Assembly: GCF_002847305.1 (NCBI RefSeq)
Contig: NZ_CP025409.1
Location: 28,523 to 92,522, forward strand
DNA length: 64,000 nt
Direction: 5' to 3'
From: Paracoccus tegillarcae
Lineage (GTDB): Bacteria > Pseudomonadota > Alphaproteobacteria > Rhodobacterales > Rhodobacteraceae
A model generated the notes under the pieces. The model saw nothing but the letters and a program-made list of their open reading frames with translations. It was not told the origin of the DNA and did not search any database. A program made the translations under genes and the position numbers. Every line of letters starts with the position of its first letter. Position 1 is the first letter of the stretch. Of this stretch, positions 3,621 to 51,416 are shown piece after piece.

Positions 3621-3663
3621 ACTGTGCTTGACGCTAATCGAGTCATGTCCAGCGCGGGCCAGC

Positions 3664-33837: not shown

Positions 33838-34209
33838 GGAGGCCCGCATATCGCGGGCCACGCCAGCCGGGGGATTCGGACAAAACCGAACGCCCCGGCT
33901 TTTGTTTGGCCGCGTTCCGCAGCCGTCATGGGAACCGCCGGTTCCCCCGTTCAAGGGCGCGTCCGCTTGACGGGGCAAGGGGTGTCCCCGGCCTTCCTTC
34001 GCGCGGCGCGCTCCGTGCAGGCCGGGTGATCCCCCTCCCCTCGCCCCTACGGCCGACCCCTGATCGGGTCCCCCTCCTGCCCTCGCCGGGAGGCAGGGTT
34101 TCAGGAGAGGCGCGCGGTCCCCGCGACCTCGCCAGAAACCCCGCCCGATGATGGGCACCCCGCACAAGGCAACGACCAAGGCGGGACCGTCGCAAAATGG
34201 AAGATGACC
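33838..34209 (+). ncRNA. Structured leader, copy 1
   Basis: Copy 1 of a hairpin-rich element found three times in the window. In order: GGCCCGC/GCGGGCC; a terminator-like stem AGCCGGGG/CCCCGGCT at 33865-33900 enclosing TTCGG/CCGAA; GGGAACC/GGTTCCC; a long hairpin GGGTTTC/GAAACCC; GCCC-GATGAT-GGGC; and a conserved end with AAGGCGGGACCGTCGC before the start codon at 34210. Classed as ncRNA provisionally; it may act as DNA structure, promoter or 5' leader. Confidence 0.65.
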
Positions 34210-34836
34210 ATGTTTCACAATTTTGATGGCCTGACCCGTAACGAAGGCCGCTGGCTCAATCTCTGGGCCGCGTTCGATGTGACCGGGGACTATCTCGGCA
34301 CCTTCACGCTGGACGATCTGCGCGCGAAGGCAGCCGATGCTGGCAAATGGGTTAGCGCCGTTCGGTATCGCCGGGCTGGTCAGCAGATTGACCAAGCCGC
34401 GCTGGCGCAGCATTTCAACGGGCTGCCGTGCGGCACGACCATCTTTGCCTTCTCAGGCTTCCGCCTGTCCCCCGTCCGCGACATGGGTGGCAGTATCGAA
34501 GTCTGCGATCCCGGCGAGCATGATTTCTGGTCGGTCTATGGGTTTCACCGGGACGCCGAAGAATGGCAGATTGTCCATGATGCCCCTTGGGGCGAGATCG
34601 GCGAAACCCTCGCCCGGATCGTGGACCTGACCGGCGAACTGGTCGAATACCGCGACCTGTCACACGCTTATGCCAATACCCGCCTGCCCGATCTGGTCGA
34701 CCTGCTGGCACAGCGCATTCTGGATGAAATCCCCGACCAAGACGACGCCGATGCGCGCATGGATGACGCGGACGCGCATCCGCTGGAAGAACTGCGGGAC
34801 CTGATCCTGTTCGCCCTCAATGCGCGGAGGGGCTGA
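34210..34836 (+). CDS. Hypothetical protein, first gene of leader-1 cassette
   Basis: 208 aa. Start chosen at 34210 because it aligns with the starts after the other two leader copies; an ATG two codons earlier is open. Contains RNEGRWLNLWAAFDVTGDYL and RLPDLVDLLAQRILDEIPDQ; acidic C-terminus (DDADARMDDADAHPLEEL). Family not recognised. Two bases from the next gene, so one operon. Confidence 0.8.
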   Translation: MFHNFDGLTRNEGRWLNLWAAFDVTGDYLGTFTLDDLRAKAADAGKWVSAVRYRRAGQQIDQAALAQHFNGLPCGTTIFAFSGFRLSPVRDMGGSIEVCDPGEHDFWSVYGFHRDAEEWQIVHDAPWGEIGETLARIVDLTGELVEYRDLSHAYANTRLPDLVDLLAQRILDEIPDQDDADARMDDADAHPLEELRDLILFALNARRG

Positions 34837-34837
34837 T

Positions 34838-35434
34838 ATGGGCTGGCTCATCTATCCCGACACCCCCGCCTGCATCCGCGATGAAATCGCCCGGCTCTGC
34901 ACCTGGGACAGCGAGAATGGACGGGGTTTCCCCGTCCTGATCAGCCGCAAGGGCTCGGTCTGGTATGCGGCGATCCGCGCGGAACCTGCCGCTGGCCGAC
35001 TGGACACCGGGCGCGACCCCACCGGGCATTTCGAGACTGACGCCACCGGCGGCTATACTTTTGCCGCCGTGTTCCTGACCACGACCAGCAAGGGCGAGTG
35101 GGGCTATAAGGACATGGACGAAACCAGCGGCCCCAATCAGGCCCAGGCCCCGGCGAAACTGCTGGACCTGCTGTCACCGACAAGCGCCGAATACGCCCTC
35201 GACTGGCGGCAGCGCTGCCGCGACCACGCGGCGCGCAACAGCCGCCGCATGAAACCCGGTGACGTGATCTGTCTGGCAACGCCCCTGCGGTTTTCGGATG
35301 GCGCTGAGTTGCAGACCTTCCGCGTCTCAAAGGAAAAATGGGGGCGCAGCAACCGAACGGTGTTCATCAGCACCGAAACCGGCGGGCGCTATTCCATCAG
35401 CAACATCATGTCCCGCGACTGGACCCGCATCTGA
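34838..35434 (+). CDS. Hypothetical protein (DUF6927-like)
   Basis: 198 aa from the ATG at 34838 behind GGAGGGG. The start MGWLIYPDTPACIRDEIARL followed by CTWDSENGRG and SVWYAAIRAE resembles the MGWL-type plasmid proteins I recall as DUF6927; this is from memory. The C-terminal half has RMKPGDVICLATPLRFSDGA and a basic RVSKEKWGRSNRTVFIS. No catalytic motif seen. Confidence 0.8.
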   Translation: MGWLIYPDTPACIRDEIARLCTWDSENGRGFPVLISRKGSVWYAAIRAEPAAGRLDTGRDPTGHFETDATGGYTFAAVFLTTTSKGEWGYKDMDETSGPNQAQAPAKLLDLLSPTSAEYALDWRQRCRDHAARNSRRMKPGDVICLATPLRFSDGAELQTFRVSKEKWGRSNRTVFISTETGGRYSISNIMSRDWTRI

Positions 35435-35499
35435 CCCGGCAGCGCCGCGCCCGATGGCGCGGCTGCACCCGTGTCCCCCGACATTCAAGGATCAGTTCC

Positions 35500-35814
35500 A
35501 TGACCCATGCACAACAGATGATCACCATCCCGAACAGCCTCTATGGCGATCAGACCGTGACCGCCTATTGCCGGTCGGGGCTTGGCGTTTTCAAGCAGCA
35601 CAAACGCTGGCAGGTCGTTCATGTCGCATCCGGCATGAGCATCGGCGGCGGACGGGGCGGCGATCGCCGCACCCGGAAAGGTGCTTTCGCGATCATGGAC
35701 GCCCTTCTGCAGACGCCGGTTGATTGGTCGAAACCCTATGATCAGGTCAGCAATGATGTGGCCGCCAACAAGACGGCGATCATGCTGGCGCTGAGCGTAT
35801 CACGCGACCAGTAA
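35500..35814 (+). CDS. Hypothetical protein, 104 aa
   Basis: Start ATG at 35500 after CAAGGATC. Contains YGDQTVTAYCRSGLGVFKQH, a Gly/Arg loop GGGRGGDRRTRKGAFAIMDA and DWSKPYDQVSNDVAANKTA. Unknown family. Flanked by short repeated texts (GCGCC...GATGGCGCGGC) that form small hairpins in the two intergenic gaps around it. Confidence 0.75.
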   Translation: MTHAQQMITIPNSLYGDQTVTAYCRSGLGVFKQHKRWQVVHVASGMSIGGGRGGDRRTRKGAFAIMDALLQTPVDWSKPYDQVSNDVAANKTAIMLALSVSRDQ

Positions 35815-35873
35815 TGCCCGCGCGCCGCGCCTGATGGCGCGGCACCCTGCCCCATCCCCACAAGGATTTTGAC

Positions 35874-36668
35874 ATGGCCCACCCCGCCGTGACCGCATTC
35901 CTGCGCGCCCTCGATCAGTTTGACCGCTCGAAAACCCGCACCGAGATCTTCCGCCTGTTCTGCGAAATGGCCTATTGCGCGCTTGCCAAGCGCGCCTCCC
36001 CGTTCTCCGATCAGCGGGACCGGCTGGAAGCACAATACATGGACTGCGTCGGCAGGTTCCCGAACAAGGACGATGTGCGGCGCATGCCTGAAATGATGGC
36101 GGTCGCCATCGAGGCCATCGCCGGCGGCGGCATCGACTTCATCGGCCAGGTCGCGGCCGAGATCGGCGCGCTCGATGCGGGCCTCGGGCAATTTTTCACG
36201 CCCTATGAGGTCAGCCGCCTGATGGCTGAAATAAGCCTTGGCGATACCGCTCGCCAGATTGAGGCGCAGGGCTTCATCACTGTGTCCGAACCCGCCGCCG
36301 GTGCCGGTGGCATGGTTCTGGCGATGGCCGATGCGCTCGAAAGCCAGGGCTTTGATCCGGCCAGGCATATCTGGGTTGAGGCGGTCGAACTGTTCCGCAG
36401 CACTTTCCACATGGCCTATATCCAGATCAGCACGCGCGGCATCGCCGGTCGGGTGATCAACGGCAACAGCCTTTCGCTGGAGGTGTTCGAGCAGTCATAT
36501 ACAGCGTCTGCGCCGGTGTTCTATGGACTGCATGGCGATCCGTTCGCGAAGCAGAAGGACGTCGCCCGCCGTGCCGCGCAGGCCGAGGAAGAGGCCCGCG
36601 CCCGGACGCGCGAGCTGCTGCACAGCACCGCGCCGGTCCAGGCTTGCGCTGTCTGGCAATGCGATTGA
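35874..36668 (+). CDS. N6-methylase-like SAM-binding protein lacking the catalytic motif
   Basis: 264 aa. LGQFFTPYEVSRLMAEI is the pre-motif of HsdM-type adenine methylases and VSEPAAGAGGMVLAMADAL is SAM motif I; WVEAVELFRSTFHMAYIQIS and VINGNSLSLEVFEQ match the following motifs. But the catalytic NPPF/Y that should come next is absent; the text runs SAPVFYGLHGDPFAKQ. It may bind SAM or DNA without methylating, or use a divergent motif. Last gene of the leader-1 cassette. Antirestriction role possible. Confidence 0.82.
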   Translation: MAHPAVTAFLRALDQFDRSKTRTEIFRLFCEMAYCALAKRASPFSDQRDRLEAQYMDCVGRFPNKDDVRRMPEMMAVAIEAIAGGGIDFIGQVAAEIGALDAGLGQFFTPYEVSRLMAEISLGDTARQIEAQGFITVSEPAAGAGGMVLAMADALESQGFDPARHIWVEAVELFRSTFHMAYIQISTRGIAGRVINGNSLSLEVFEQSYTASAPVFYGLHGDPFAKQKDVARRAAQAEEEARARTRELLHSTAPVQACAVWQCD

Positions 36669-36737
36669 CGCAGGCCATTGCGTTGCCTATTCTGACCGAG
36701 AACGAAAGGGGATCACCGATCCCAGTTTTCAGGTTTT

Positions 36738-36784
36738 CCTTCTGCGACGAAGGTTCACTTGGGCCGCCCTTGGGCGGCCTTTTT
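36738..36784 (+). terminator. Double-hairpin terminator of leader-1 cassette
   Basis: First a small hairpin CCTTC-TGCGAC-GAAGG, then GGCCGCCC-TT-GGGCGGCC followed by TTTTT. The first hairpin and the following GGTTCA are repeated almost exactly at 47930, at the end of the leader-2 cassette. Confidence 0.88.
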
Positions 36785-36809
36785 CTTTATGAAATACTTG
36801 AGGAAATGA

Positions 36810-37043
36810 TTATTTGGCTACACAATCAAGGTAGGCAGAGCGGGTCTCTGTCGCGGGTACTGCTTGAACTTTACCAATCTGACCGTCTTCTGTTTTACAG
36901 ATTAGATGGCTGTCATCCTCCTTGTCGGCAATTAATGACCACTTTTGACTGATCCACGCTGCACCAAGTAATGCAACGGCACCTATTACCGCGGCTATGA
37001 TCGTTGCATATGCAGACCACCGTGCCTCACCGTTCTTAGCCAT
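36810..37043 (-). CDS. Small membrane protein
   Basis: 77 aa, start ATG at 37043 after AAAGGG. One membrane helix (YATIIAAVIGAVALLGAAWI) and a C-terminal domain with two cysteines (HLICKTEDGQIGKVQ; AYLDCVAK). Unknown. AT-richer than its neighbours. Confidence 0.65.
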   Translation of the reverse strand: MAKNGEARWSAYATIIAAVIGAVALLGAAWISQKWSLIADKEDDSHLICKTEDGQIGKVQAVPATETRSAYLDCVAK

Positions 37044-37069
37044 TAAACGCCCTTTCTACTCCATCTCTG

Positions 37070-37495
37070 CTACGCCAGATCGGTTTCGCTGAAATCCCGT
37101 CCCTTGTAGAGCAGCGGAACCTGTTCGGCCTTCGCGCAGGCATAGGACAGCGCATCGCCCATGTTCAGCTGCGCCGGGTGGCCCACCTGCTTGCCGTAGA
37201 TTGCCAGCGCCGCGATCGCGCCCTTGCCGATCTCGCTGGTGATCGGCATGTCCTGCGCTTCGAGGGCTTCCAGCAGCTGATCGACCAGCCCGGTCGCATC
37301 GGCGTAGTCGGCGGCAGTGGCCGGTCCCTTGCCGCGCGTCTCGATCCGCGCGCGCACCAGTGCCAGCACCGCCTCCATCCGCACCACTGGTGAAAAGCGC
37401 AGCGTGCCGCGTGCGGCCTCCATCGCCTTCAGCAGCGCGGTGCCGTCCGATTCCCGCAGCAGCACCGCGACCAGCGCGCTGGCATCGAGAAACAT
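37070..37495 (-). CDS. vapC: PIN-domain toxin (VapC family)
   Basis: 141 aa from the ATG at 37495, sharing the ATGA overlap with the antitoxin. MFLDASALVAVLL gives the first Asp, VVRMEAVLALVRA the Glu, and LNMGDALSYACAKAEQVPLL with GRDFSETDLA the C-terminal acidic residues. The GDALSYACA form is typical of FitB/VapC toxins of alphaproteobacteria. Confidence 0.93.
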   Translation of the reverse strand: MFLDASALVAVLLRESDGTALLKAMEAARGTLRFSPVVRMEAVLALVRARIETRGKGPATAADYADATGLVDQLLEALEAQDMPITSEIGKGAIAALAIYGKQVGHPAQLNMGDALSYACAKAEQVPLLYKGRDFSETDLA

Positions 37496-37740
37496 CAGTT
37501 CTCGCCCCACATCTCATCCATGAACGCCTTGTCGGAGCTTTTCGGGGAGACGAACCCGCCGTCAGCCGCCTGCCGCTGGATCTTCGCAACCCGGTCCGCC
37601 AGGCTTTCTTTCGCCGCCAGCGCCTCGATCTGTGCCGCCAGTGCCCGGCGCACCGCCTCGCTCTTGTTGCTCTGGCCCGTCATGGCACAGTATTTTTCGA
37701 CCAATGCGTCGATCTCGTCGCCTCTGATCAGGATTGCCAT
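37495..37740 (-). CDS. vapB: VapB-type antitoxin (RHH/PSK-like)
   Basis: 81 aa. MAILIRGDEIDALVEKYCAM and QSNKSEAVRRALAAQIEAL form a ribbon-helix-helix with the toxin-binding tail KAFMDEMWGEN. It should repress its promoter at the large palindrome overlapping its start codon. Confidence 0.9.
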   Translation of the reverse strand: MAILIRGDEIDALVEKYCAMTGQSNKSEAVRRALAAQIEALAAKESLADRVAKIQRQAADGGFVSPKSSDKAFMDEMWGEN

Positions 37741-37777
37741 GTGTATATCCTCTGATGTATAATCGGTATATACACAT
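37739..37777. promoter_or_regulatory. vapBC operator
   Basis: Perfect 10-base inverted repeat ATGTGTATAT / ATATACACAT with 19 bases between, overlapping the vapB start codon. Half-site ATGTGTAT is shared with the operator of the other vapBC at 6517. Confidence 0.75.
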
Positions 37778-37830
37778 CAAGATAGATTTCTGCAATTCCC
37801 GAGGTCAGTGATTATCGACAGGTGATCTTT

Positions 37831-39042
37831 ATGCGTTCAGCCGATATTGCCGTCCCCGCCAGCCGCTATCAGCTCGGTGCTGATACCTTCGATGCCGCAT
37901 CACCCAATTGGCAAGGCATTCTCGCTACGGCGCATCGGAACAAGGCCCGGCCGGCTTGCCTCTGTTCATCAGCATCCCCGCTCATGTATGTCGCCAAGAT
38001 CCAGGGCGAATTTTATCTGAAGCGGATGCCCGGCACCGGACACGCCCATGACCCCTCCTGCGACAGCTTCGCCATGCCGCCGGAACTGTCGGGTCTTGGT
38101 CAGGTCGAGGGCAAGGCCATCACCACCGATGACAGCGGCGAAACCACTCTCAAGCTGGATTTCCCCCTTTCGGTCCGAGGCCGGAGGGGCGTTGCCCCGG
38201 ATGCCGGCGATCACGAACCCACCGTGGCCGAGGCCAGCCCCAGCAAGCTGGGTCTCCTTGGCTTGCTGCATTTCCTCTGGGATGCCGCCGGCCTGACCAT
38301 GTGGCGCCCCGCCTATGCGCGCCGGTCCTGGTGGATCGTTCATCGCGAACTGACCGCCGCGGCCGAGCGCGCCAATGCGAAATCCATGCCGCTGTCCTCG
38401 GTCCTGTTCGTGCCGCCCATGTTTTCCGCCGAGAAGAAGGACGAACTGGCCGCCGCGCGTCGGCGCTTCCTGCATCACCTTCAGCCGGTCAAGGGCAAGC
38501 CCATGCCCCTGGGCGTGCTTGTGGCCGAGCTGAAGGACATGGAGCCGTCCCAATATGGCCGGAGGATTCGGTTCAAGCATCTGCCTGACATGGCCTTTTT
38601 CATGGAAGAGGAGCTGTGCGCCCGTTTCGACAAGCTTGCCGGTGACAAGATCCGCGACGTGGAGGCCGTCGAAGGCGCCCATCTGATCGTCATCGCCACC
38701 TTCAACATGCGCGGCAACTATGCCGAGATCCGGCAGATCGCCGTTATGGCCGTCACGGCACAGTGGATCCCCTTCGATCATGATCGCGAGCTGCGTCTGA
38801 TCGAGGCCATGCGAGATCGCCATTTCAGCAAAAGTCTACGCTACAACATGCGCCAGGACGCCCCGATCGCCAATGCCGTGATGCTCGACACCTCGCCCCC
38901 CACCGCTCTTTACTGCCCATCGCAAGCACTCCAACCCGAACTCGAACGCGAACTGGTCGAAATCGCAGCAGAAGGCGTCTATCCGGCGTGGATCTGGCCG
39001 GCGCAGGATGATGACATGCCGGGATTGCCAGCTGCTGGATAA
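37831..39042 (+). CDS. DUF1173-like plasmid protein
   Basis: 403 aa from the ATG at 37831 after AGGTGA; a GTG at 37822 is possible. The N-terminal part has RPACLCSSASPLMYVAKI and LKRMPGTGHAHDPSCDSFAM; CLC plus H-x-H-x3-C suggests a zinc knuckle. I recall this layout as DUF1173 of alphaproteobacterial plasmids. The remainder (YARRSWWIVHRELTAAAERA, LAAARRRFLHHLQPVKGKPM) has no known catalytic motif. Divergent from vapBC and convergent with the type III restriction gene. Confidence 0.8.
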   Translation: MRSADIAVPASRYQLGADTFDAASPNWQGILATAHRNKARPACLCSSASPLMYVAKIQGEFYLKRMPGTGHAHDPSCDSFAMPPELSGLGQVEGKAITTDDSGETTLKLDFPLSVRGRRGVAPDAGDHEPTVAEASPSKLGLLGLLHFLWDAAGLTMWRPAYARRSWWIVHRELTAAAERANAKSMPLSSVLFVPPMFSAEKKDELAAARRRFLHHLQPVKGKPMPLGVLVAELKDMEPSQYGRRIRFKHLPDMAFFMEEELCARFDKLAGDKIRDVEAVEGAHLIVIATFNMRGNYAEIRQIAVMAVTAQWIPFDHDRELRLIEAMRDRHFSKSLRYNMRQDAPIANAVMLDTSPPTALYCPSQALQPELERELVEIAAEGVYPAWIWPAQDDDMPGLPAAG

Positions 39043-39116
39043 GAGAAGCAAGGTAGCCAGCCAGCACCCTCGGAGCGGTTTTCGCTAGACGAGCTTCAAA
39101 ACGCGTCATCAAAGCC

Positions 39117-41669
39117 CTAGTGAATCATGACCATGTCTTCGATTTCAAACGGTCCCGCCCCGAAAATTCGGTTGTAAGAATGGTTCCACACGGCTTTCAA
39201 AAATATGCCTTCTGCCTCCCGGTAGGACCAGAAGACCTTCTTGTATTCGCTGTGCTCTGAGCGAATTTTGATCGCATTGCTGTCCGAGTGCAGCCTCCCG
39301 GTTTCTCCGTCATCCTTGATCTCGACCAATGCGATACTGTCGCGGGTGCGCCGTCCGCTGACGCCCACAACGAAATCAGGGAAGAACCGCTTTCCGGTCG
39401 GCAGGATCAGCCGCGTTGCCCACTTCTCGTTTTCCGGGTTGCGCAGCCACCACTTGATCCGGCCCGTGTCGTCATTGTCCAGCATTTCGACAAAGGCCCG
39501 CTCTGGTCGGTTGTAACGACCGATGAAAGCCCCGTAGGCCCCCTTCTTGGCCTTTGGCGCGTCCTTCGGGCCAAATTGTTCTGTCGGGACTGGCTCGTTA
39601 CTCTCTAAGCGGATGTGATGGCCCTGTGCGATGCGAACGGCCTCTTTCAGCGCCTGCGGCTGTCGCAGGATCGCCAAGTTGATGGTCCTGCGAATGTCGC
39701 GGCTCGTCGCGGCGATACCATCCTTCTGGCACAAGCGGGCAAGCTCGGCCTCTACCGCTTCGCGGATGCGGCGGGGGTCGATCCCGTCATTGAACATAAG
39801 CTGCGCTTGCGCCTGTTCCGCGATCCGGGCCGCCGACATCCTGACACTCAGGTTGCGCTGATCCGTCTGGCCCGCGTTGAACAAGTCGCGCATCGACAGT
39901 TCGGCGTTGCTGTTCACCGCCAGCAACATCGAGGTCATGGGCACCATCCGGCAAAACTCGCGGGCGATCTGCGGGCAGAGGTCGCCTTCGATGTCGAACA
40001 GGTTCGGCAGTTCCTCCCGCACAAGCGCGGTTGGAATGCCCAAATCCGTCCGCAGCAGATACTTCACCTGATGTTCTTGCGGCACCGGCTGTGCGGGTGT
40101 CACGCGAGGCGACAGGACATCGGGAAGGTTCGGGAACAGAGGCGGTGTGGCCGGGGCCGAAAAGCCTTCGACTGCACTCAAGGCGCTTTGCTGGCGCGGG
40201 GGCGAGGCGGTGGCATAGTTCGGGTTCAGCAACCCCATCGACACCTGCCGTTCAATCCGGTCGCCCTCGGTCTCACCCGGCACTGTTTGCACGGGCGGGG
40301 GCGGCAACGGCGTTGCGCCATAGCTTTCTGCCGCCCGCGTATCGTTGCCCAACACATTCACGTCGAGCGTGTCGGTCAGCACCGCGATCCCCTCGCGCAC
40401 CGCTTTCAGATCGGCGGCGGCCTCATCCAGGCCCACCTGCAGCTCCGGGTCCGACATGAAGACATAGCCCCGGTCCAGCAGCGGCTCAGACCCATGCAGC
40501 GGACGCACCAGCGGATGCACCCGCATGATCCGCCCCACGATCTGCAAACCGAAATCCCGCCCGCGCGACGGGCGCACCGAAACCAGCGTCCATGCTCGCG
40601 GCGCATCGAACCCGGTCGCTACGGCCAGCTTGAACACCAGAACCTCGATCTCGGGGTCATAGGCCAGCGTGTGAAACGCGGGGTCGGGCTCGCCCGAGGT
40701 GTGGACGGCAATCGCCTTCTCGGGCACCCCGATCTCGATCAGCCGCTCCGTCACCCGCGCAACCGGGTCTTCCTTCCCCTCTTGCTGATCCTCGACCTGC
40801 ACCAGCATCAGCGGCGTCAGGCTGATCCCCTTTTCAGCCAGCTTGTCCTTGATGAACGAATGCTGCGACCATCCCGCCGTCAGGGTCGCCGCTTCGGTGT
40901 CGATCAGCGCCCGGTCCTCTTCCTTGAACCGCAGCACGCCGACCATCAGGCCGATCTTGTTCAACCCCGCCTTCACCACGGCCTCACGGGCAACCGTCAC
41001 GCGGCTTGCCACCTTTAACCCGGCATCGCGTTCAAACTTTTCCAGCTTGGCATCGTTCGGCGTGGCCGTGGCCAGCACCGTGAAATCGGGCGAGAGCACA
41101 TTCAGAAAGAAATCCGCCGTCGCCGCAGCACCCGAGCCGAAATTCAGATGCGCCTCGTCGATCACCACGCCGATACGGAACCCCCGCTCGCGCAACTCGG
41201 CAATCATGCTGTCCACCGACAGCGACGCCTCCTTGTCACTGCGGACCTTGCGGCTTTCCTTCTTGACCACGGCGACCGAGGCCCAGGTCTGCACGAACAC
41301 ATCGCCATCCCGCGCAGCACTTGCCTCGCGGTCGGCATAGACATCGCGCTGGCGCAACGCGCCGCATTGGGCGGTCAGGGCGCTGCGGGTCTGCGTCACC
41401 AGCCCGGCATAGGGGGCGAACCAGAACCAGACCGTCTTGGCCGAAAGCTGCCCACGCACGGCTTCCAGCGCACGGCCCAGCATCAGGGTTTTGCCCGATC
41501 CGGTCGGGGCTTGCAGCAGGATCACCCCCAACTCACGCGAAATCCGCGTCCGGTGTTCGGGTTCGCGGTCATGCAGGGCGGATACGGTGCGCAGCGTCTC
41601 AGCCAGCGCATCGACGGCGTTCAACTGATACTTGGCCAGCGATACTCGGAAATCAGCGTCACCCGTCAT
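39117..41669 (-). CDS. res: Type III restriction enzyme, Res subunit
   Basis: 850 aa from the ATG at 41669, which overlaps the mod stop. Walker A ILLQAPTGSGKTLMLG near residue 57, DEAH box IGVVIDEAHLNFGSG near 165, TVLATATPNDAKLE, helicase motif VI DFGLQIVGRIMRVHPLV, and a C-terminal PD-(D/E)xK nuclease FFPDFVVGVSG...ALVEIKDDGE near 770-800. It translocates with Mod and cuts unmethylated DNA. All motifs are present, so it is probably active. Confidence 0.94.
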   Translation of the reverse strand: MTGDADFRVSLAKYQLNAVDALAETLRTVSALHDREPEHRTRISRELGVILLQAPTGSGKTLMLGRALEAVRGQLSAKTVWFWFAPYAGLVTQTRSALTAQCGALRQRDVYADREASAARDGDVFVQTWASVAVVKKESRKVRSDKEASLSVDSMIAELRERGFRIGVVIDEAHLNFGSGAAATADFFLNVLSPDFTVLATATPNDAKLEKFERDAGLKVASRVTVAREAVVKAGLNKIGLMVGVLRFKEEDRALIDTEAATLTAGWSQHSFIKDKLAEKGISLTPLMLVQVEDQQEGKEDPVARVTERLIEIGVPEKAIAVHTSGEPDPAFHTLAYDPEIEVLVFKLAVATGFDAPRAWTLVSVRPSRGRDFGLQIVGRIMRVHPLVRPLHGSEPLLDRGYVFMSDPELQVGLDEAAADLKAVREGIAVLTDTLDVNVLGNDTRAAESYGATPLPPPPVQTVPGETEGDRIERQVSMGLLNPNYATASPPRQQSALSAVEGFSAPATPPLFPNLPDVLSPRVTPAQPVPQEHQVKYLLRTDLGIPTALVREELPNLFDIEGDLCPQIAREFCRMVPMTSMLLAVNSNAELSMRDLFNAGQTDQRNLSVRMSAARIAEQAQAQLMFNDGIDPRRIREAVEAELARLCQKDGIAATSRDIRRTINLAILRQPQALKEAVRIAQGHHIRLESNEPVPTEQFGPKDAPKAKKGAYGAFIGRYNRPERAFVEMLDNDDTGRIKWWLRNPENEKWATRLILPTGKRFFPDFVVGVSGRRTRDSIALVEIKDDGETGRLHSDSNAIKIRSEHSEYKKVFWSYREAEGIFLKAVWNHSYNRIFGAGPFEIEDMVMIH

Positions 41670-43883: not shown

Positions 43884-44233
43884 GAGGCCCGTGTGCCACG
43901 GGCCACGCCAGCCGGGGGAATAGGACAAGCCGAACGCCCCGGCTTTTGCTTGGCCGCGCCAGAGCGCGGCCGTCTGGAAACCGCCGGTTTCCCCGTCAAC
44001 CAGAAAATACTGCGCCGTCTGCGGGGCCGTGTCCTCGCGCTGTGCGCTGCGGGCCGCACCACCCCCTTGTCGGCTGGATTTTCAAGTTGCCGGGCCCCCT
44101 TCCCGCCCTCGCCGGGAGGCAGGGTTTCAGGAGAGGCGCGCGTTCCGCGTCCTCTTCTGAAACCCCGCCCGATTATGGGCATCCCGACCACGGCAAAGAC
44201 CAAGGCGGGACCGTCGCAAAAAGGAAACTGACC
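43884..44233 (+). ncRNA. Structured leader, copy 2
   Basis: Same hairpin series as copy 1 with compensatory changes: first stem GGCCCGT/ACGGGCC, third stem GGAAACC/GGTTTCC, and GGCCGCG/CGCGGCC between. The middle third differs in sequence from the other copies. The end, from GCCGGGAGGCAGGGTTTC to GGGACCGTCGCAAAAAGGA, is nearly identical to copies 1 and 3. The start codon follows at 44234. Confidence 0.65.
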
Positions 44234-44605
44234 ATGGGTCTGGACCAATACGCCTACAGCATTTCCGAGGAAAATGCCGCAGAGGGTGGCCATGTGCCGC
44301 AGTTCACGTGGCGCAAGCATTCCCGGCTGCAAACGTGGATGGAAGCCCTCTACACCGCCCGCACCGGACTTCATTCCGACAACCTCAACTGCGGTGAGTT
44401 GCGGCTGACCGAAGCGGACCTGACGGCGCTGGAAACTGCCATCCGCGAGAAGGCTCTGCCCGTCTGTCACGGCGGATTTTTCTACGGCCACCAAGCGCAA
44501 GAGGAACAGGCGGACGCCTATCACGATCAGGACCTCGCGTTCTGTGCATGGGCCAAAGCTGAAATCAGCGAGGGCCGCGCCGTCGCCTATTCCTGTTGGT
44601 GGTAA
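44234..44605 (+). CDS. Small plasmid protein (MGLDQYAY type)
   Basis: 123 aa. Begins MGLDQYAYSISEENAAEGGH, a start I recognise from small plasmid and phage proteins that are sometimes mislabelled phosphoglycerate kinase. Contains FTWRKHSRLQTWMEALY, CHGGFFYGHQAQEEQ and ends AVAYSCWW. No kinase features. First gene after leader copy 2. Confidence 0.8.
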   Translation: MGLDQYAYSISEENAAEGGHVPQFTWRKHSRLQTWMEALYTARTGLHSDNLNCGELRLTEADLTALETAIREKALPVCHGGFFYGHQAQEEQADAYHDQDLAFCAWAKAEISEGRAVAYSCWW

Positions 44606-44710: not shown

Positions 44711-44830
44711 GTGAGAGGAACGAACCAATGGCTTGAACAGCGCATCACCGAAGCGTGGGCACTCATCAGGAAGGGCGGACATTCCGCGAAGATCGGCCGC
44801 GCCTTCCTGATCCAGCACGGAGTCATCTGA
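44711..44830 (+). CDS. Possible 39-aa protein
   Basis: Short frame starting GTG at 44711 just after AAAGGAG: residues end SAKIGRAFLIQHGVI, with QWLEQRITEAWALIRKGGH before. Dense coding-like structure and a strong Shine-Dalgarno sequence, though the spacing is tight. Lies in the otherwise empty gap before the ParB-like gene. Confidence 0.35.
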   Translation: MRGTNQWLEQRITEAWALIRKGGHSAKIGRAFLIQHGVI

Positions 44831-44902
44831 CCCCCTCGCCTCGGCCCAACGGGCCGGGGCACCGATACCACAAAACCAATGTCGCAAACAAGGATATACA
44901 CC

Positions 44903-46744
44903 ATGAAACAGAGTGCTATCGACAAGGCCCCGATCCAGTATTTCCCGATGGATCGCCTTTATATTTCGCCAATGAACCCGCGCGAGAGCGTGAATGACGA
45001 AGGCATCACCCTGCTGGCGGAAAGCATCAAGGTCGCGGGACTGATCCAGAACCTGGCAGGTCATCTGGACGAGGACGGCAAGGTCGGCATCGTCGCAGGT
45101 GGCCGTCGCCTGCTGGCCATGACGGAAATCCCGCCCGAGGACATGGCGGCAATCGGACTGACGGAAATCCCGGTGCGGATCGCGCCGGATGAAGCCACCG
45201 CCCGCGCTTGGGCCAGCATCGAAAACACCGCCCGCGAGGCCCTGCACCCCGCCGATGAAATCCGCGCCTATGGCCGGATGGCCGAAAGCGGCACCACCGT
45301 TCCGGCAATCGCCCGCGTGTTCGGCCAGACGGAAAAGCACGTCTATCGCCGTCTTGCGCTTGCCGCCCTGCCCGTTCCGGTGCTGGACGCGCTGAAAGCC
45401 GGAGAACTGACCCTTGGTGCTGCTGAATGCTTCACCGTGGCCCAGAGCGAGGCGCTTGCCTTGGAGGTTCTGGACCGGGTGCGCGGCGAGGATTATTCCG
45501 TCGCGCGGCTGAAACAGGCATTGCAGCCGGAAGCCATCGGCAAATCTGATCGTCGCGTCGTCTATGTCGGGCTGGATGCCTATGAGGGCGCGGGCGGTCA
45601 TCTGACTCGCGATCTGTTCGCGGATCAGGTCTTTCTGACCGATGCCGATCTGCTGGACAGCCTCTATGCCGAAAAGCTGGCCATGGATGCCGACATGCTC
45701 GGCCAGGGCTGGAAATGGGTCGAGACGAGCGACGACCAGTATATCCCCTATGAGGTCACGTCGAAACTCGACCGCATCTATCGCATCGAGGGCGAACTGA
45801 CCGAGGAACAGGCCACCCGCTATGACGAACTGGCCGAACTGGCCGAGGGCGACGTGCTGGACGAAGCCGGTCAGGCGGAACTGGATGCGCTGGAAGCAAT
45901 CTGTGACGGTGAGTTTACCGACACGCAGCGCGACCATGCCGGGCTGTTCATCTTTGTGGCCCGCGACGGACAACTGACCGTGCAAGCGGCCTTTGTCCGG
46001 CCCGAGGATCGGGACGCCGCCATCGCGGCGGAGGTTCTGACCGGCCATGCCGCCATGCGCGGACAGACCGGCAGCGCCGCTGATGCCGAGCCGAAATCGC
46101 CCATCAGCAATGCGCTGCGAGAGGATTTGAACCGCGTGGCGAAGGGCGCAAGGCAACACGCTGTCTTGCGCGATCCTGATCTGCTGATCGCGCTCTTGGC
46201 CTATCAGTTGAGCCACGATCTGCAATGGCGCAGCCCGCTTGGGCTATCGACCGAGGACGTGCCGAACTGGCCGACAACGGCAGCGGAAGGCTATGCGCTG
46301 GATGATCGCCTGACCACGAACGCGCTGCCCGACATGCATGGCAAAGACCTTGCCAAATCCTTCCGCGCCTTCCGCAAGAAAGGCGAGGATCACATTCGTG
46401 GCGAGTTGGCCCGCTATCTTGCGGCCCATTATCGCGGCGGTTCCGATGAATTGCGCGCTTTGATCGACAAGGACACGAAGCCAGCGATCCGCGAGGTCTG
46501 GACCCCCACGGCGGCGAATTTCTTCAGCCGCGTGGGAGGCCCCTATCTCAATGATCTGTGGCGTGATCTGCTGGACCTGAAAGAAGAGCACCCGACCGCC
46601 ACCACCTTCGCCAAGCTGAAAAAGGGCGAGAAGGCCGAAATGCTGGAAGCCCTGTTCAGTGATCCGGTGATCCGCACCGCGCGCGGCGTCACCGAGGCGC
46701 AGGAGGCCCGCATCGCCGCGTGGCTGCCCGAGGGTATGGAGTGA
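44903..46744 (+). CDS. ParB/Spo0J-like protein, extended
   Basis: 613 aa from the ATG at 44903 after AAGGA. N-terminal ParB-like nuclease/CTPase fold: ISPMNPRESVNDEGITLLAE, LIQNLAGHLDED, VGIVAGGRRLLAM and SIENTAREALHPADEIRAYG; then an HTH, TVPAIARVFGQTEKHVYRRL. The C-terminal 350 residues are specific to large plasmid ParB-like proteins, with acidic repeats (YDELAELAEGDVLDEAGQAE). Not the segregation ParB, since repABC provides RepB. In F-like plasmids such proteins are encoded in the early-entering leading region. Confidence 0.9.
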   Translation: MKQSAIDKAPIQYFPMDRLYISPMNPRESVNDEGITLLAESIKVAGLIQNLAGHLDEDGKVGIVAGGRRLLAMTEIPPEDMAAIGLTEIPVRIAPDEATARAWASIENTAREALHPADEIRAYGRMAESGTTVPAIARVFGQTEKHVYRRLALAALPVPVLDALKAGELTLGAAECFTVAQSEALALEVLDRVRGEDYSVARLKQALQPEAIGKSDRRVVYVGLDAYEGAGGHLTRDLFADQVFLTDADLLDSLYAEKLAMDADMLGQGWKWVETSDDQYIPYEVTSKLDRIYRIEGELTEEQATRYDELAELAEGDVLDEAGQAELDALEAICDGEFTDTQRDHAGLFIFVARDGQLTVQAAFVRPEDRDAAIAAEVLTGHAAMRGQTGSAADAEPKSPISNALREDLNRVAKGARQHAVLRDPDLLIALLAYQLSHDLQWRSPLGLSTEDVPNWPTTAAEGYALDDRLTTNALPDMHGKDLAKSFRAFRKKGEDHIRGELARYLAAHYRGGSDELRALIDKDTKPAIREVWTPTAANFFSRVGGPYLNDLWRDLLDLKEEHPTATTFAKLKKGEKAEMLEALFSDPVIRTARGVTEAQEARIAAWLPEGME

Positions 46745-46799
46745 CCAAGGCGGGGCGCGCGCAAGACGCGCGCCCCGTGCCATCACGGAGGATCGACCA

Positions 46800-47054
46800 A
46801 TGACCGATGAGTTCAATCAGAGCGACTATCAGAAGGAAAAGGCATGGCACGGGCTGTCATGCGGCTGTGGCGGCGGATACCGCGTCGGCCATGCCCTTGG
46901 CTGCCCGGACGCAACCCGCGACGACAATCTGTCCTGGTTGGACGATGATATTGCCCGCGCTGTGGCGGCGGGCGACCAGGAGGAAATCGCCGATCTGCGC
47001 CGGATCAGGGCCGAGATCGAGCGGCTGCCAACCAGATATGCCGATGGGGACTGA
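46800..47054 (+). CDS. Hypothetical protein, 84 aa
   Basis: Start ATG after GGAGGATCG. Contains WHGLSCGCGGGYRVGHALGC, with C-x-C and a later Cys that could bind a metal, and an acidic helical C-terminus. Same operon as the ParB-like gene. Unknown family. Confidence 0.75.
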   Translation: MTDEFNQSDYQKEKAWHGLSCGCGGGYRVGHALGCPDATRDDNLSWLDDDIARAVAAGDQEEIADLRRIRAEIERLPTRYADGD

Positions 47055-47057
47055 GCC

Positions 47058-47489
47058 ATGCGCTTCATCAAAGCGTCCCGCCACCCCTTCACCGATACCG
47101 CCCGCAAGCGCGCAGCCCTTGCCCGCAAGCAGAAGGCCGAACGCGATGCCCTGCCGCTCTTTGCGGCAGAAATCGCCGCCGGCCAGCGCAGCCCTGACGA
47201 TGTGATGCAGGCCCGAGCGGAAAGGTGGGCGGCAAGCGAGGCCCGCAGGCGGCAATGGCGTGCGGAGCGATGGCGGCAGGCCCGCCGCGAAATCGACGCC
47301 ATGCCAAAAAACATGCGGCGCAAGGTCCGCGCCGCATGGGACGGTGCACCCTACCCCGCCGATCCAGTCTATCTGCTGGATTTCCTGCATGAGCTTCGCG
47401 TGGGTCGGCGCAGCATGGACGCCCTGCCCTTCACACCAAAGCCGGTCAATGCGCGTGGCCACAGCATCAGCATCGGAGGCCTGCCATGA
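47058..47489 (+). CDS. Hypothetical basic protein, 143 aa
   Basis: Arg/Ala-rich and helical: SRHPFTDTARKRAALARKQK, RAERWAASEARRRQWRAERW. The C-terminal part (AAWDGAPYPADPVYLLDFLH) looks globular. Possibly nucleic-acid binding from charge alone. Three bases after the previous gene; overlaps the next by four. Confidence 0.78.
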   Translation: MRFIKASRHPFTDTARKRAALARKQKAERDALPLFAAEIAAGQRSPDDVMQARAERWAASEARRRQWRAERWRQARREIDAMPKNMRRKVRAAWDGAPYPADPVYLLDFLHELRVGRRSMDALPFTPKPVNARGHSISIGGLP

Positions 47490-47899
47490 TGACGATCCTG
47501 AGCGCCCGAGACATTGCCGAGGCCATCCCCGCCCATTTCGAGGCTGACCGCCGTGCCGCCTTCGCCGCGCTTCATGCCTCTGCCGATCTGAACAGGGATC
47601 AGCGCCGGGCAAGCGCCGACCGCGCGCTGGCGCAGGCAGTCTGGGACAGTTTTGGTGAAAATCCAGCGGTGGATTTCACCGCTTGGCGCCATCCGGTGCT
47701 GGCCGTGCCCTGCCCGACCTGCCGCGCCAGCATCGGTGCCTGGTGCAAGCGCCCAAGCGGCCACCGCGCTGCCGATCTGCACGATGAACGCGGCGCCGAT
47801 GCGGATCGGGCGTTCATTCGGCAGCACGGGGCGAGTGCCGCCATCCGGCGCGATGGTGCTGGCTGGATCATCGACGCGCACGGACGCGAGAGGGATTAG
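47486..47899 (+). CDS. Zinc-finger-like protein, 137 aa
   Basis: LAVPCPTCRASIGAWCKRPS followed by GHRAADLHDERG forms a C-x2-C...C...H...H knuckle with the conserved Gly and HxxR tail of plasmid/phage zinc-finger proteins. The N-terminal 75 residues are helical. Last gene of the leader-2 cassette, just before its terminator. DNA-binding likely, role unknown. Confidence 0.8.
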   Translation: MMTILSARDIAEAIPAHFEADRRAAFAALHASADLNRDQRRASADRALAQAVWDSFGENPAVDFTAWRHPVLAVPCPTCRASIGAWCKRPSGHRAADLHDERGADADRAFIRQHGASAAIRRDGAGWIIDAHGRERD

Positions 47900-47929
47900 A
47901 CCCAAGAATAAAGCGCCCGCCGACCCTTT

Positions 47930-47980
47930 CCTTCTGCGACGAAGGTTCAACTGGCCCCGCCTTGCGCGGGGTCCCTTTTT
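47930..47980 (+). terminator. Double-hairpin terminator of leader-2 cassette
   Basis: CCTTC-TGCGAC-GAAGG then GGCCCCGC/GCGGGGTCC and TTTTT. The first hairpin plus GGTTCA is the same text as at 36738-36756. A further GC hairpin (CCCCGG/CCGGGG) lies at about 48008-48028. Confidence 0.85.
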
Positions 47981-48132
47981 GCGAGGAAGCCTTTGATTGC
48001 CCTAGCCGGCCCCGGCTTTGGGCCGGGGACTGGCCAGGCCCGTGCGCTTCGCGCTGAGACGCGCCGCCGGTGCGTCAGCGCCGGTCGCCAGTATTACCTG
48101 AGAGTGCTCCCTAGCACCCAAAGTCTATCAGG

Positions 48133-49563
48133 CTAGAATACGAAGTCGTCCAATCCGAGGGCTGCCTTACTAATATTCTTGATAACAAGAACATCACCGT
48201 CAGAGTCACGTAACTCAACATCCGCCCCGACCTGGTAAAGCCGGGCTTGCACGGTAGAGTAATTCGTAAGAGTTGTACTCCCGCGTAAATAGATCACATC
48301 ACCAGCAGGATCGCTAAAATCCCATATTGTGTCTCTACCATCCCGACCATCGAAAGAATTGTTGGAATTAATGAACAAGAACGAATCAGCTCCCGCGCCT
48401 CCGTAATAATTGTCATTCCCACCAAGTCCATTGAATGCGTCTGCACCGGCATTACCACGAAGTGTATTTGATGCCGAATTGCCTACTAAGGCATCGCTAC
48501 CGGAGCCGCCCGTGGCATTTTCAATAAGGGAGCGCACATCGGTACCATATTGAAGTGCATTATATATATTGCCGGTCGCAAGTTTATCTGGTGCGCCATA
48601 CCAATTCCGGTTCAGGACTGCAAGTTGGTTGGTGTCAAAGGTACTTCTATCACCAGGTGTCAACCTAATTATCATGTCTGTCGTATAGGCCGAGAGGTCA
48701 TAGGTATCTATGCCACCTCCATCCCATATCGTTGCAAAGATTGTGTCCCCAGCCGCATCTATCCCAACGGCTCCATTGACATATGTGTTTCCATCACCCG
48801 GCAGCCACTTATATGTCGTATTTCCACTATTTGTCGTGAAGTCAGCGCCATAAGCATGTTGTAGAGCGCGAATATCGAGCATCATAAATGTTTGAGCATA
48901 GTCAAATTTATCGTTTCCACCGACGCCAGACGCTCCCTCGCCTGGGTATGAGTTATAACTCATGACGGTGTATTCCATCGCATCATAAGTTGGGTTCAGG
49001 GCTGGATTATATGGGGCAGTGTTGTACGTTGAGCTTGGGTGTTTGAGGCCGAGCGCGTGGCCTGTCTCATGAATGACATTGTACCACCCAATTGTCCCTG
49101 CTCTGACGTCGGTATACATACCATCATTCAGCCATACATCACCTGATCTCGTAACTGGAGCGGTTCCAGGAAAGGACGCATACCCGCCTTCATTGCTTCC
49201 TGTCATGGCGGTTTGGGCGTATCTGATATGAGCTCCACTTACCCCTGAAGGCGCTGCAGATTCGGCAATATTAAGGTTAGTGAAGCCTTCGACCGAAAAA
49301 CCCTTCGAACCTGCCCATGTTGTACCTTCGAGCGCAAAATGCGCCGCATTCTTAGTGCCCAGGGTAACTTGCGAGAAGGTTGGGAGTTCAAACGGTCGCA
49401 CCTGTGAGGCCTGATAGCCCGAACCATAATTGGAGGAACTTGTGGAAAACGTATAGTAAATTGTTGATTCGGCCCATTTTGCTCCAAAGAGCATGCCGTC
49501 TATCAAATTCGCGCCGTACTTTGGGACTGCAGCGCCGGGATTATTTGTTCCTGTCATTTTCAT
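48133..49563 (-). CDS. Serralysin-family (M10) metalloprotease
   Basis: 476 aa. Zinc site NVIHETGHALGLKHPSSTYN (HExxHxxGxxH) near residue 165 and Met-turn YTVMSYNSYPGEG near 200. The C-terminal half has RTX calcium-binding repeats (NAGADAFNGLGGNDNYYGGA) and ends ALGLDDFVF, a type I secretion signal pattern. No type I secretion genes are in the window. GC content is clearly lower than its neighbours, so it was probably acquired. A gene for a small lipoprotein lies just upstream. Confidence 0.94.
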   Translation of the reverse strand: MKMTGTNNPGAAVPKYGANLIDGMLFGAKWAESTIYYTFSTSSSNYGSGYQASQVRPFELPTFSQVTLGTKNAAHFALEGTTWAGSKGFSVEGFTNLNIAESAAPSGVSGAHIRYAQTAMTGSNEGGYASFPGTAPVTRSGDVWLNDGMYTDVRAGTIGWYNVIHETGHALGLKHPSSTYNTAPYNPALNPTYDAMEYTVMSYNSYPGEGASGVGGNDKFDYAQTFMMLDIRALQHAYGADFTTNSGNTTYKWLPGDGNTYVNGAVGIDAAGDTIFATIWDGGGIDTYDLSAYTTDMIIRLTPGDRSTFDTNQLAVLNRNWYGAPDKLATGNIYNALQYGTDVRSLIENATGGSGSDALVGNSASNTLRGNAGADAFNGLGGNDNYYGGAGADSFLFINSNNSFDGRDGRDTIWDFSDPAGDVIYLRGSTTLTNYSTVQARLYQVGADVELRDSDGDVLVIKNISKAALGLDDFVF

Positions 49564-49569
49564 AAACTC

Positions 49570-49992
49570 CTAATTCATCATATTTCCCATGAGCGGTTCA
49601 ATCAAATAATGATCTTCGGGACTATATGAAGGAACATCTGGACAGCCTTCATCGATTCTCGTTTGTAAATTTTCTTTTACTTTTTGTACCAAAGGTTTAT
49701 TTGCATAGGCATAATTCTCCAGCGACTCCGCCCGCGTAAGAAGGGCGCGCAGGTTATCATTGCTTCCATGTCGCATCATTATTTGAAAATAGTTAGGATC
49801 AGCGAGCAAGACCCTATCGCCTCTTCGAGGTGGGGGTTCCGAAACCACCTTCTTGGGCCCTGCGGCCACAGGACAACTGAATTCCGACGGCGCGTAACCA
49901 TTACACGCGGCCAGGTAAAACAGTGTCAACCCAGCAATCATAGGTGAAAGAGACCGAATCACTGCTACCTCCGCGCGAATCATACTAAACAT
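49570..49992 (-). CDS. Lipoprotein upstream of the metalloprotease
   Basis: Up to 140 aa; starts at 49992 or 49983 are possible. Hydrophobic segment MIAGLTLFYLAACNGY ends in a lipobox with Cys30. Mature part acidic and helical (LLTRAESLENYAYANKPLVQ), no similarity seen to serralysin inhibitors. Separated by six bases from the protease start, so co-transcribed; it could be an accessory or immunity-like lipoprotein. Confidence 0.7.
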   Translation of the reverse strand: MFSMIRAEVAVIRSLSPMIAGLTLFYLAACNGYAPSEFSCPVAAGPKKVVSEPPPRRGDRVLLADPNYFQIMMRHGSNDNLRALLTRAESLENYAYANKPLVQKVKENLQTRIDEGCPDVPSYSPEDHYLIEPLMGNMMN

Positions 49993-50767
49993 CTATTGTT
50001 ACGGTCCGGGTTATTCGCAAGTGACGATCATTAGCCGGCGATCGATGCTTGGCTGAGTCGGCAGGATATTGCCAAGGTTACACTGCGGTGCTGCTAACCT
50101 TTGGTGCAAGCGTCTGCCCGCGAGCGGGCACCGCGTCTTAGTCCGGCCATGGCCGGACCCAAGCCAGACAGGGCGATGAGCCCGGCTGCGGCGTCTGCGG
50201 TCTGTCTCGTCCCGAGCCAGATCCTCGTGCGCCGGTCTTGGGCGCCCTGCCCTGTCGGTCTTGGCCCATTCGGGTGACGGCCGCTGACGCGGGCTGGCCT
50301 TCAGCCGCCCCGTTCCCAACCGGATCATGGGGCAGCCGTCACCGCCCTCCCAATCCCGGTCGGCCGGTCGGTTGGGTCAAAGTCTCTCGGCCAAAGGGCA
50401 TGTTGTGGCGTAAAGAGCTTGGCGCTGTGACCCTGGCAGCATTGCGGTTGAACCGGAGACGGGCAGCCGGTCCCGTTCTTGCCGACTTTCTCGCTGACGG
50501 TGACGCGGGGGCTTGCTGTCGTGGCCAACCCGGTCCTTACCAGCGGGTGCGTTTCTCATCGATGAAATATGACAGGGCAGCGCCCCGGACGGCCTTTTGA
50601 GGCCCGCCTATGGCGGGCCACGGCTTGATGTCATTTTTGGCCTTCAATGACGAATTTCCCCTGGCCTTCGGCCATTCCTCGCGGAAGACAAATTCCTCAT
50701 TGACCGACGCTCTTCCTGCCCCGTCCCGGAAATTTCATCGAAACGCCAAGCAGGAAAGGAAAACCAA
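49993..50767. other. Intergenic region with GC hairpins
   Basis: No gene supported. At 50599-50620 lies GAGGCCCGCC-TAT-GGCGGGCC, the same first hairpin (followed by CACG) that opens the three leader copies, but without the rest. An AT-richer patch at about 49975-50050 precedes the lipoprotein gene. A CAAGG-type region at 50690-50767 leads into the next gene. Confidence 0.5.
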
Positions 50768-50959
50768 ATGGCCAACGAAAGCATGAAGCTCCGCGTGAAA
50801 ACCGGCGAGAAAGACGGCAAGAACTTCTGGGACAGCTGCGGTGTCCTCTTCATCAACCGCAATGCCGCCGGCGAGATCACCTCCATCCAGGTCCGCCACA
50901 ACATGTTCCCCGGCGTCGATATGGTCGCCTTCCCGAAACGGGACGACGACCAGGAGTAA
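50768..50959 (+). CDS. Small conserved-type plasmid protein, 63 aa
   Basis: Start ATG after AAGGAAAACC. MANESMKLRVKTGEKDGKNF, then WDSCGVLFINRNAAGEITSI and a charged end. Beta-rich; looks like a compact OB- or SH3-sized domain. Family not recognised. It lies immediately before leader copy 3. Confidence 0.75.
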   Translation: MANESMKLRVKTGEKDGKNFWDSCGVLFINRNAAGEITSIQVRHNMFPGVDMVAFPKRDDDQE

Positions 50960-51036
50960 CGACAGGGGCGGCGAAAGCCGCCCCTTTGCCGTTCCATCCG
51001 GTCGCTCACGCGACAGCCTTCGGCCAGGAAGATCGA

Positions 51037-51416
51037 AGGAGGCCCGCGCAGATCGCGCGGGCCACGCCAGCCGGGGGATTCGGACGACGCCGAACGCCCC
51101 GGCTTTTTTCTGGGCCGCGGGACCGCGGCCGTGACGGGAACCGCCGGTTCCCCCGTTCAAGGGCACGTCCGCTTCACGGGGCAAGGGGTGTCCCCGGCCT
51201 TCCTTCGCGCTGCACGCTCCGTGCAGGCCGGGTGAGTCCCCTCCCCTCGCCCCTGCGGCCGACCCCTGATCGGGTCCCCCTCCTGCCCTCGCCGGGAGGC
51301 AGGGTTTCAGGAGAGGCGCGCGGTTCGCGCGTCCTCGCCAGAAACCCCGCCCGATGATGGGCACCCCGACCACGGCAAAGACCAAAGCGGGACCGTCGCA
51401 AAAAAGGAGGCCACAC
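51037..51416 (+). ncRNA. Structured leader, copy 3
   Basis: Nearly identical to copy 1 over much of its length, with stem-preserving changes: first stem GGCCCGCGC/GCGCGGGCC, terminator-like stem AGCCGGGG/CCCCGGCT at 51069-51104 followed by TTTTTT, next stem GGCCGCGG/CCGCGGCC, then GGGAACC/GGTTCCC, the GGGTTTC/GAAACCC hairpin and the conserved end before the ATG at 51417. Confidence 0.67.

Follow-up and report, generated by a model that had tools for sequence, protein, structure and literature searches.

In this study, we analyzed a 64-kb stretch of DNA from Paracoccus tegillarcae (hereafter the window), which covers positions 28,523-92,522 of NZ_CP025409.1 and forms the final part of C2, a 92.5-kb contig in a four-contig genome, and found that three hairpin-rich copies within it are elements repeated along a conjugative plasmid's leading region. 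Two kinds of central core could be distinguished, type I in copies 1 and 3 and type II in copy 2. We give roughly even chances to the reading that these elements are leading-region single-strand promoters, Frpo-like in working and non-homologous to Frpo in sequence. For the type I elements, structure, place and strand are established by the comparisons given below, and transcription from the single strand is what we infer.

Structure of the three copies

The copies, each about 370 nt long and rich in hairpins, lie on the plus strand at 33838..34209 (copy 1), 43884..44233 (copy 2) and 51037..51416 (copy 3), where the initial annotation had placed them with common 3' ends. Copies 1 and 3 were 94% identical across 281 nt. 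In its 3' part, copy 1 has a 106-nt segment that was found again in copies 2 and 3 at 82-83%. Each copy abuts the start codon of the following gene (34210, 44234 and 51417, respectively), as had also been noted; a further in-frame ATG is present at 34204 in copy 1.

The stem changes that had been described as preserving base pairs were all found at their places. The first stem is GGCCCGC/GCGGGCC in copy 1 (33841/33853), GGCCCGT/ACGGGCC in copy 2 (43886/43898) and GGCCCGCGC/GCGCGGGCC in copy 3 (51041/51055), and the third stem is GGGAACC/GGTTCCC in copies 1 and 3 (33930/33940 and 51136/51146) and GGAAACC/GGTTTCC in copy 2 (43976/43986). The middle stem is GGCCGCG/CGCGGCC in copy 2 (43952/43965) and GGCCGCGG/CCGCGGCC in copy 3 (51113/51123); that of copy 1, GGCCGCG/CGCAGCC, contains a single C.A mismatch, corresponding to a G.T wobble when the opposite strand is read. 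All copies also have a 5' hairpin (33865..33900, 43910-43944 and 51069-51104 in copies 1, 2 and 3) and a 3' hairpin with a TCGCC loop (34075..34097, 44101-44123 and 51281-51303). Folding of both strands of the three copies gave z values of -2.3 to -4.8 with DNA parameters (60 dinucleotide shuffles); with RNA parameters, they were -3.8 to -4.1 for the sense strand and -3.4 to -5.2 for the other strand.

Between these hairpins lies the core. A covariance model (R1), built from 38 core representatives on the template strand, matched the minus strand, which is the gene-template strand, at 33969..34050 in copy 1 (78.9 bits, E 9.9e-16) and at 51175..51256 in copy 3 (69.7 bits, E 1.6e-13). The type II core of copy 2 (43997..44089, +; outer arms CAACCAGAAAAT / ATTTTCAAGTTG) reads GTGTCCTCG...GGGCCGCACCA, differing from the central core of copies 1 and 3, and had no R1 match at E up to 1.

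Occurrence and covariation of the type I core

A nucleotide search with copy 1 returned 161 places in 74 plasmid records. Among the 60 records listed of these 74, 58 were annotated, and in 56 of the 58 no annotated feature lay beneath the best match; the elements are mostly found outside coding regions and at gene starts, and the opposite outcome did not occur. The core of about 80 nt recurs in Paracoccus, Phaeobacter, Sphingobium, Caulobacter, Thiothrix, Pseudomonas and others, and the exact central pattern GGSCGGGTGATCCCCCTCCC was present in at least 119 stretches of the genome collection. Hosts among the 80 matches listed were Sphingomonadales, Rhodobacterales, Caulobacter, Thiothrix, Pseudomonas, Burkholderiales and some metagenome-assembled genomes labelled as other phyla. 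Contigs of this last sort carrying type I cores (L029, L079, L081 and L091) were labelled Saprospiraceae, Akkermansiaceae, Puniceicoccaceae and Planctomycetota, which reflects either a wide host range or misbinned plasmids.

Matches from the genome collection and from plasmids together gave 125 unique cores, copies too near a locus end being excluded from core counts. The upstream partner was present in 113 under a strict rule, which drops 12 of the 125, and in 117 under a looser rule; the 117 were grouped into 39 clusters. Among 398 genomes sampled from the phylum, R1 had matches in 13, including the genome of the window, and a gapped core pattern had no matches in viral contigs.

Pairing was examined in an alignment of 38 template-strand core sequences (A2; L048 excluded). 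Of its pair cells, 91.7% were paired versus 75.3% in shuffles, and the covariation score was 0.422 versus 0.124 (sd 0.012); when the partner was shifted by one column, pairing fell to 57-58%. The outer stem varies freely in sequence while its pairing is kept, with double changes in 9 of 12 pairs, and the inner part of the core is nearly invariant. RNAalifold on a longer alignment concurred (double changes in 8 of 17 pairs). Selection on the structure of the element, which had been proposed from the three copies, is therefore supported by this covariation; a lack of significant covariation among homologues had been named as the contrary outcome, and strong covariation was observed instead.

Strand preference of the fold

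Deviations from Watson-Crick pairing were distributed unequally between the strands: sense-strand A.C was far commoner than sense-strand G.U, that is, the deviations were mostly G.T on the template strand. In model-free anchored counts (38 of 39 representatives parsed), the outer pairs 4-11 contained 16 template-strand versus 2 sense-strand G.T wobbles (binomial p 0.001, relatedness ignored). The covariance-model alignment of 50 clusters gave 18 versus 4 for the outer nine pairs and 55 versus 9 for all 22 pairs, and the 21 clusters outside the search pattern gave 7 versus 2 and 22 versus 3, respectively. Two variable inner pairs contributed 20 and 19 A.C cases to the anchored counts, which are weaker evidence because the search pattern fixes one side of each pair.

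The template strand was more stable than the sense strand in 48 of the 50 clusters (mean -3.19 kcal/mol), a comparison that we used only after shuffle correction because composition accounts for most of the difference; beyond composition, the difference remained significant (Wilcoxon p 7.5e-4, relatedness ignored). An idea based on GNA loops was considered and not retained. Of 96 unique apical regions, 84 had CG-N-AG on the template strand and 2 had it on the sense strand (25 of 152 regions being unparsed), an excess that may be due in part to the conserved GGAAGG stretch. GCGNAGC loops, which are highly stable in DNA, were found in 30 of the 96, with 3.5 expected.

Position relative to gene starts

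A Shine-Dalgarno (SD)-like motif followed by a start codon and an open reading frame (ORF) of at least 40 aa was found within 320 nt downstream of 109 of 111 cores. The same rule was satisfied by 65 of 110 cores in the opposite direction and by 322 of 550 random places, and because controls often meet it, the argument for gene starts is carried by the distance pattern and not by the bare hit rate. The distance from core to start was 82-118 nt in 54 of the 109 cores and 149-170 nt in 41, shorter in 11 and longer in 3. In an alignment of 27 copies, which includes one locus of a second plasmid contig (C3) twice, an SD-like stretch and a start codon end every row.

The 92 different first proteins encoded downstream included ArdC (20), DUF3768 (16), ArdA (6), ParB_N (5) and DUF2958 (3), with single cases such as DUF932, DUF3560 and N6_Mtase; the NCBI ParB model was matched by 8 of the 92. 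Matches to PADLOC models, with one member each, were to methyltransferases, a type IIG enzyme, mad2 and capP. The description of the elements as leaders of accessory cassettes was thus not borne out: the genes (ArdC, ParB-like, N6-methylase) are such as belong to leading regions, and the pair changes suit folding of the template strand over folding of an mRNA.

Orientation relative to the transferred strand

The relaxase gene of the window, of the MobA/VirD2 kind (PF03432; 4594..6468, +), lies on the same strand as the three copies. The presumed origin of transfer (oriT) region, 3411..3745, is situated between a ParA/VirC1-like gene (2694-3410, -) and a MobC/RHH gene (3746-4597, +). Element direction agreed with the relaxase strand in 30 of 31 loci from 10 plasmids after one doubly counted C3 locus had been removed, the mismatch being a reversed element of L026 at 10365, 0.3 kb from the presumed oriT. 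The orientation table leaves out L028 and L172, whose relaxase lies beyond the fetched stretch, and L173, which has a MobA/MobL relaxase and a single, concordant element. For C3, the relaxase strand was taken from DNA similarity, and its oriT was not located.

In C2 (window 1967-1778, -), L001 and L025, a reversed type II element is found about 1.5-2.2 kb away from the presumed oriT; C3 also has one, at a distance of 3 kb from the relaxase match. When reversed copies are included, 30 of 35 loci are concordant with the relaxase strand and directed towards the presumed oriT. Thus, the template strand is the transferred strand (T-strand) for 30 of the 35 loci with known relaxase strand.

We also searched for nic sites in 8 plasmids with the MOBP nic consensus, in the interval that separates the relaxosome genes from the gene next to them. 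TATCCTG followed by C was found on the T-strand predicted from the relaxase in four of them (L003, L004, L026 and L027), and L004 additionally has ATCCTGC on the other strand. L002 had only a loose nic-like match, on the other strand, and the nic-like patterns tried had no match in the presumed oriT regions of the window, L001 and L025.

Further copies, type II relatives and plasmid context

A fourth copy is located at C2:19505, about 9 kb left of the window and on the same strand as copies 1-3. C3 contained six matches, all on the strand of the relaxase match there, which represent only three loci because the sequence of C3 recurs every 57.2 kb or so; C3 (81.9 kb; L020-L024) is probably an unclosed circle. 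Its copy at 2376 is short of several single bases compared with other copies, as in a low-quality contig end. The reversed type II element near the presumed oriT of the window (1778..1967, -) is directed away from it and is followed by a start codon at 1777 and an ORF of 131 aa (1777-1382, -) that begins MSTQERRDNG.

Type II core matches were found in 228 plasmid records, with query coverage of at least 80% in 5; hosts include Enterobacter, Citrobacter, Klebsiella, Salmonella and Pseudomonas plasmids. The matches in Enterobacter, Citrobacter, Klebsiella, Salmonella and Pseudomonas aeruginosa plasmids were about 40 nt long at about 90%, and many host plasmids were of 300-490 kb among the 45 of 228 records listed. 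A strict type II pattern, scanned against 385 genomes of the class, matched 2 genomes, one being the window's own, and was too strict to be useful. In L003, another repeat, with partial core likeness by eye, precedes ParB, ArdC and DUF3768 genes (ahead of 3080, 5236 and 8130) and is perhaps a third core type.

Copy 1 is followed by a gene for a 208-aa protein without a Pfam family (34210..34836, +), a DUF6927 gene (34820-35434) and an N6_Mtase gene (35874-36668). Copy 2 precedes a gene for a 123-aa protein (44234..44605, +) and copy 3 one for a 78-aa protein (51417..51653, +), both without a significant Pfam match, with a ParB-like protein gene (44879-46744) and an ArdC gene (ArdcN + MPTase-PolyVal; 51789-52736) further downstream, respectively. 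Elsewhere in the window, type IV secretion genes lie between about 10.4 and 22.7 kb, RepC lies at 28.7 kb, and SRAP, UmuC and SNase genes lie ahead of copy 1. A PIN-domain protein gene (37070-37510, -) and an SNase-like gene (33133-33774, -) are on the strand opposite to the leading genes; similar to these are VapBC in L001, L025 and L028 and thermonuclease genes in L001 and L025. A 294-nt direct repeat (82%) occupies 57033-57326 and 63706-63999, the second repeat reaching the contig end.

Comparison with known elements

The initial annotation knew of no named element with this layout. This stands as far as sequence is concerned, since none was found in Rfam, in four F plasmid regions or, for two strings, in papers; by layout, Frpo and the conserved upstream (CUP) elements of IncN plasmids resemble the present elements. 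The window had no Rfam match at gathering scores, and a permissive search of four loci gave two sub-threshold, unrelated matches and no relevant family. Two exact core strings did not occur in open-access papers, and the family was not found described in the open-access literature, a scope that does not extend to supplementary tables.

Like the present elements, Frpo/ssi of F, ColIb-P9 and relatives consists of repeated leading-region hairpins before leading genes (ssb in Frpo) in a single direction, and the structured strand is the T-strand in both. They differ in that the present elements are GC-rich with another invariant core, that a weak test found no -10/-35 boxes in them, and that their carriers are mostly MOBP-typed (three compared records being typed as non-mobilizable), whereas F is MOBF. 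In F, the region before ssb has a second copy (87.6%) at 15613-16012 of the fetched stretch, ahead of another leading gene and in the same direction, which agrees with Frpo2 and Frpo1 as described in PMC9849209. When our elements were compared with four F regions, matches were of 11-13 nt at most (E 0.06 or higher), whereas the second copy of F itself was recovered at 87.6%. The T-strand of the F region before ssb folds better than its complement (-66.1 vs -63.0). Samuel et al. 2024 (PMC11541004) share the idea of structured promoters in leading-region anti-defence islands; as set out in its main text, their Frpo-like candidates differ in having been found by BLAST to known sequences plus a -35/-10/UP search, and that main text contains no occurrence of Paracoccus or Alphaproteobacteria.

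IncN CUP elements (pKM101/R46) are likewise several large GC-rich repeats before leading genes (ardA and ardB among them), all in the same orientation, and ArdK binding sites are reported for them (PMC6289460). In R46, ccgAI, ardA, ccgD and ardB are each preceded by a long hairpin-rich repeat (these four are 86.7-98.1% alike) and ccgC by a short repeat, and all five lie on the same strand. The long repeats end in a visible TTGACT-17-GATAAT or a close variant, that is, a sigma-70-type promoter at the 3' end, whereas none was found in the copy 1 region. In the four regions that contain them, the sense strand gives the slightly more stable fold (-89.8/-87.9, -94.6/-93.6, -97.6/-96.0 and -65.0/-61.1), and among nine R46 regions folded the template strand was favored only at ardK, in contrast to the type I cores, in which the template strand is the more stable. 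Neither the type I nor the type II core pattern was present at R46 leading genes. Type I elements are Frpo-like in strand and CUP-like in layout and, by the tests made, homologous to neither.

Proposed role and alternative explanations

Single-strand promoters have been demonstrated experimentally for Frpo-type sequences, and surveys, judging from parts of PMC11541004, PMC12826799 and PMC9849209, rely mainly on similarity or on -35/-10 boxes. If the present elements work in this way, the template strand of the genes would fold into a long hairpin once the T-strand enters the recipient, and RNA polymerase, perhaps with a further factor, would use the folded duplex as a promoter, so that ArdC, ParB-like, methylase and related genes might be transcribed ahead of complementary-strand synthesis. 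The element would be silent or weak after conversion to double strand, and several copies per plasmid would allow each operon to be switched on upon entry. In this manner, the element probably helps to turn on, at an early stage, the anti-restriction and related genes carried by the first-entering part of the plasmid.

Several observations weigh against this single-strand promoter reading. First, five copies (window 1967-1778, C3, L001, L025 and L026), in 5 of 10 plasmids, are directed away from a nearby presumed oriT; at these the template strand is the retained strand, and they are the strongest evidence against an element that acts only on the T-strand in the recipient. Second, the wobble asymmetry is reversed at pair 12 (0 template vs 3 sense), whose addition changes the anchored count to 16 versus 5 (p 0.03, relatedness ignored). 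The wobble counts take no account of relatedness, the inner-pair asymmetry is partly built in by the search pattern, R1 was made on the template strand, and strand-biased deamination could be an alternative source of the asymmetry. Third, composition accounts for two thirds of the energy difference between the strands (-3.19 vs -2.14 kcal/mol in shuffles), and 6 of 12 distinct type II cores do not surpass shuffles in template-strand bias, whereas the other 6 do. Two of five covariation measures in A2, the counts of pairs and of pair types, were also modest (11 vs 9.6 and 34 vs 30.4 in shuffles), with 22 and 24 of 500 shuffles reaching the observed values. Among five F regions folded, one of which is a Frpo copy, two favor the sense strand. 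Finally, no sigma-70-like -35/-10 boxes were found in the copy 1 region on either strand, and the 39 representatives scored no better than shuffles, in a test that is weak because the F region before ssb itself scored only 7/12.

The reversed copies would also fit a two-sided set, to which we give little credence, in which T-strand copies fire in the recipient upon entry of the leading region, and a single reversed copy, located near oriT and carried by the retained strand, fires in the donor at the onset of transfer. If so, transfer would be signalled in donor and recipient alike by one kind of element, which would be recognized in a way unlike that of Frpo.

Among other explanations, we hold rather unlikely a CUP-like regulatory region working in double-stranded DNA, in which GC-rich hairpins stand upstream of a normal promoter and early expression results from a plasmid repressor that is missing in the recipient. 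Such a region would match the layout of IncN R46, and the reversed copies near oriT suit a strand-independent element. However, no promoter of this kind was found in copy 1, the long-repeat regions of R46 have the opposite strand preference to type I cores, neither core pattern is found at R46 leading genes, and compensatory hairpins would be needless for a plain promoter.

It is distinctly unlikely that the elements are single-strand initiation (ssi) sites, at which the folded T-strand loads a primase or primosome for complementary-strand synthesis and the gene-proximal place is a by-product. Strand logic and leading-region position would be the same, and Frpo is said, in the title of a 1997 work by Masai and Arai, to serve primer RNA synthesis, which we count in favor of this explanation; yet it leaves unexplained the narrow core-to-start distances of nearly every tested copy and the presence of up to six copies per plasmid (L001). 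Highly doubtful, too, is an antisense RNA of the template strand, or a site in double-stranded DNA that forms a cruciform or binds a protein: the template-strand wobble bias, or the tolerance of both orientations, would also follow from it, but neither the narrow distance and fixed direction to the SD-like motif and start codon nor the lack of a promoter-like site in the copy 1 region, whichever strand is read, agrees with it. A structured mRNA leader of the sense strand (riboregulator or attenuator), as originally suggested, would account for strong hairpins right before start codons (sense-strand z of -3.8 to -4.1, RNA parameters) and is nevertheless very improbable, given that sense-strand A.C mismatches far exceed sense-strand G.U pairs, that the template strand is more stable in 48 of 50 cores and that no Rfam family matches.

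If the elements are indeed single-strand promoters, a covarying family of their own, comprising two or more core types in alpha-, beta- and gammaproteobacteria, would imply that early expression from the entering strand has arisen repeatedly or diverged far. The family would mark leading regions and new anti-defence genes in plasmids without such annotation. The strand asymmetry of pair changes can serve as a test for any suspected single-strand DNA element.

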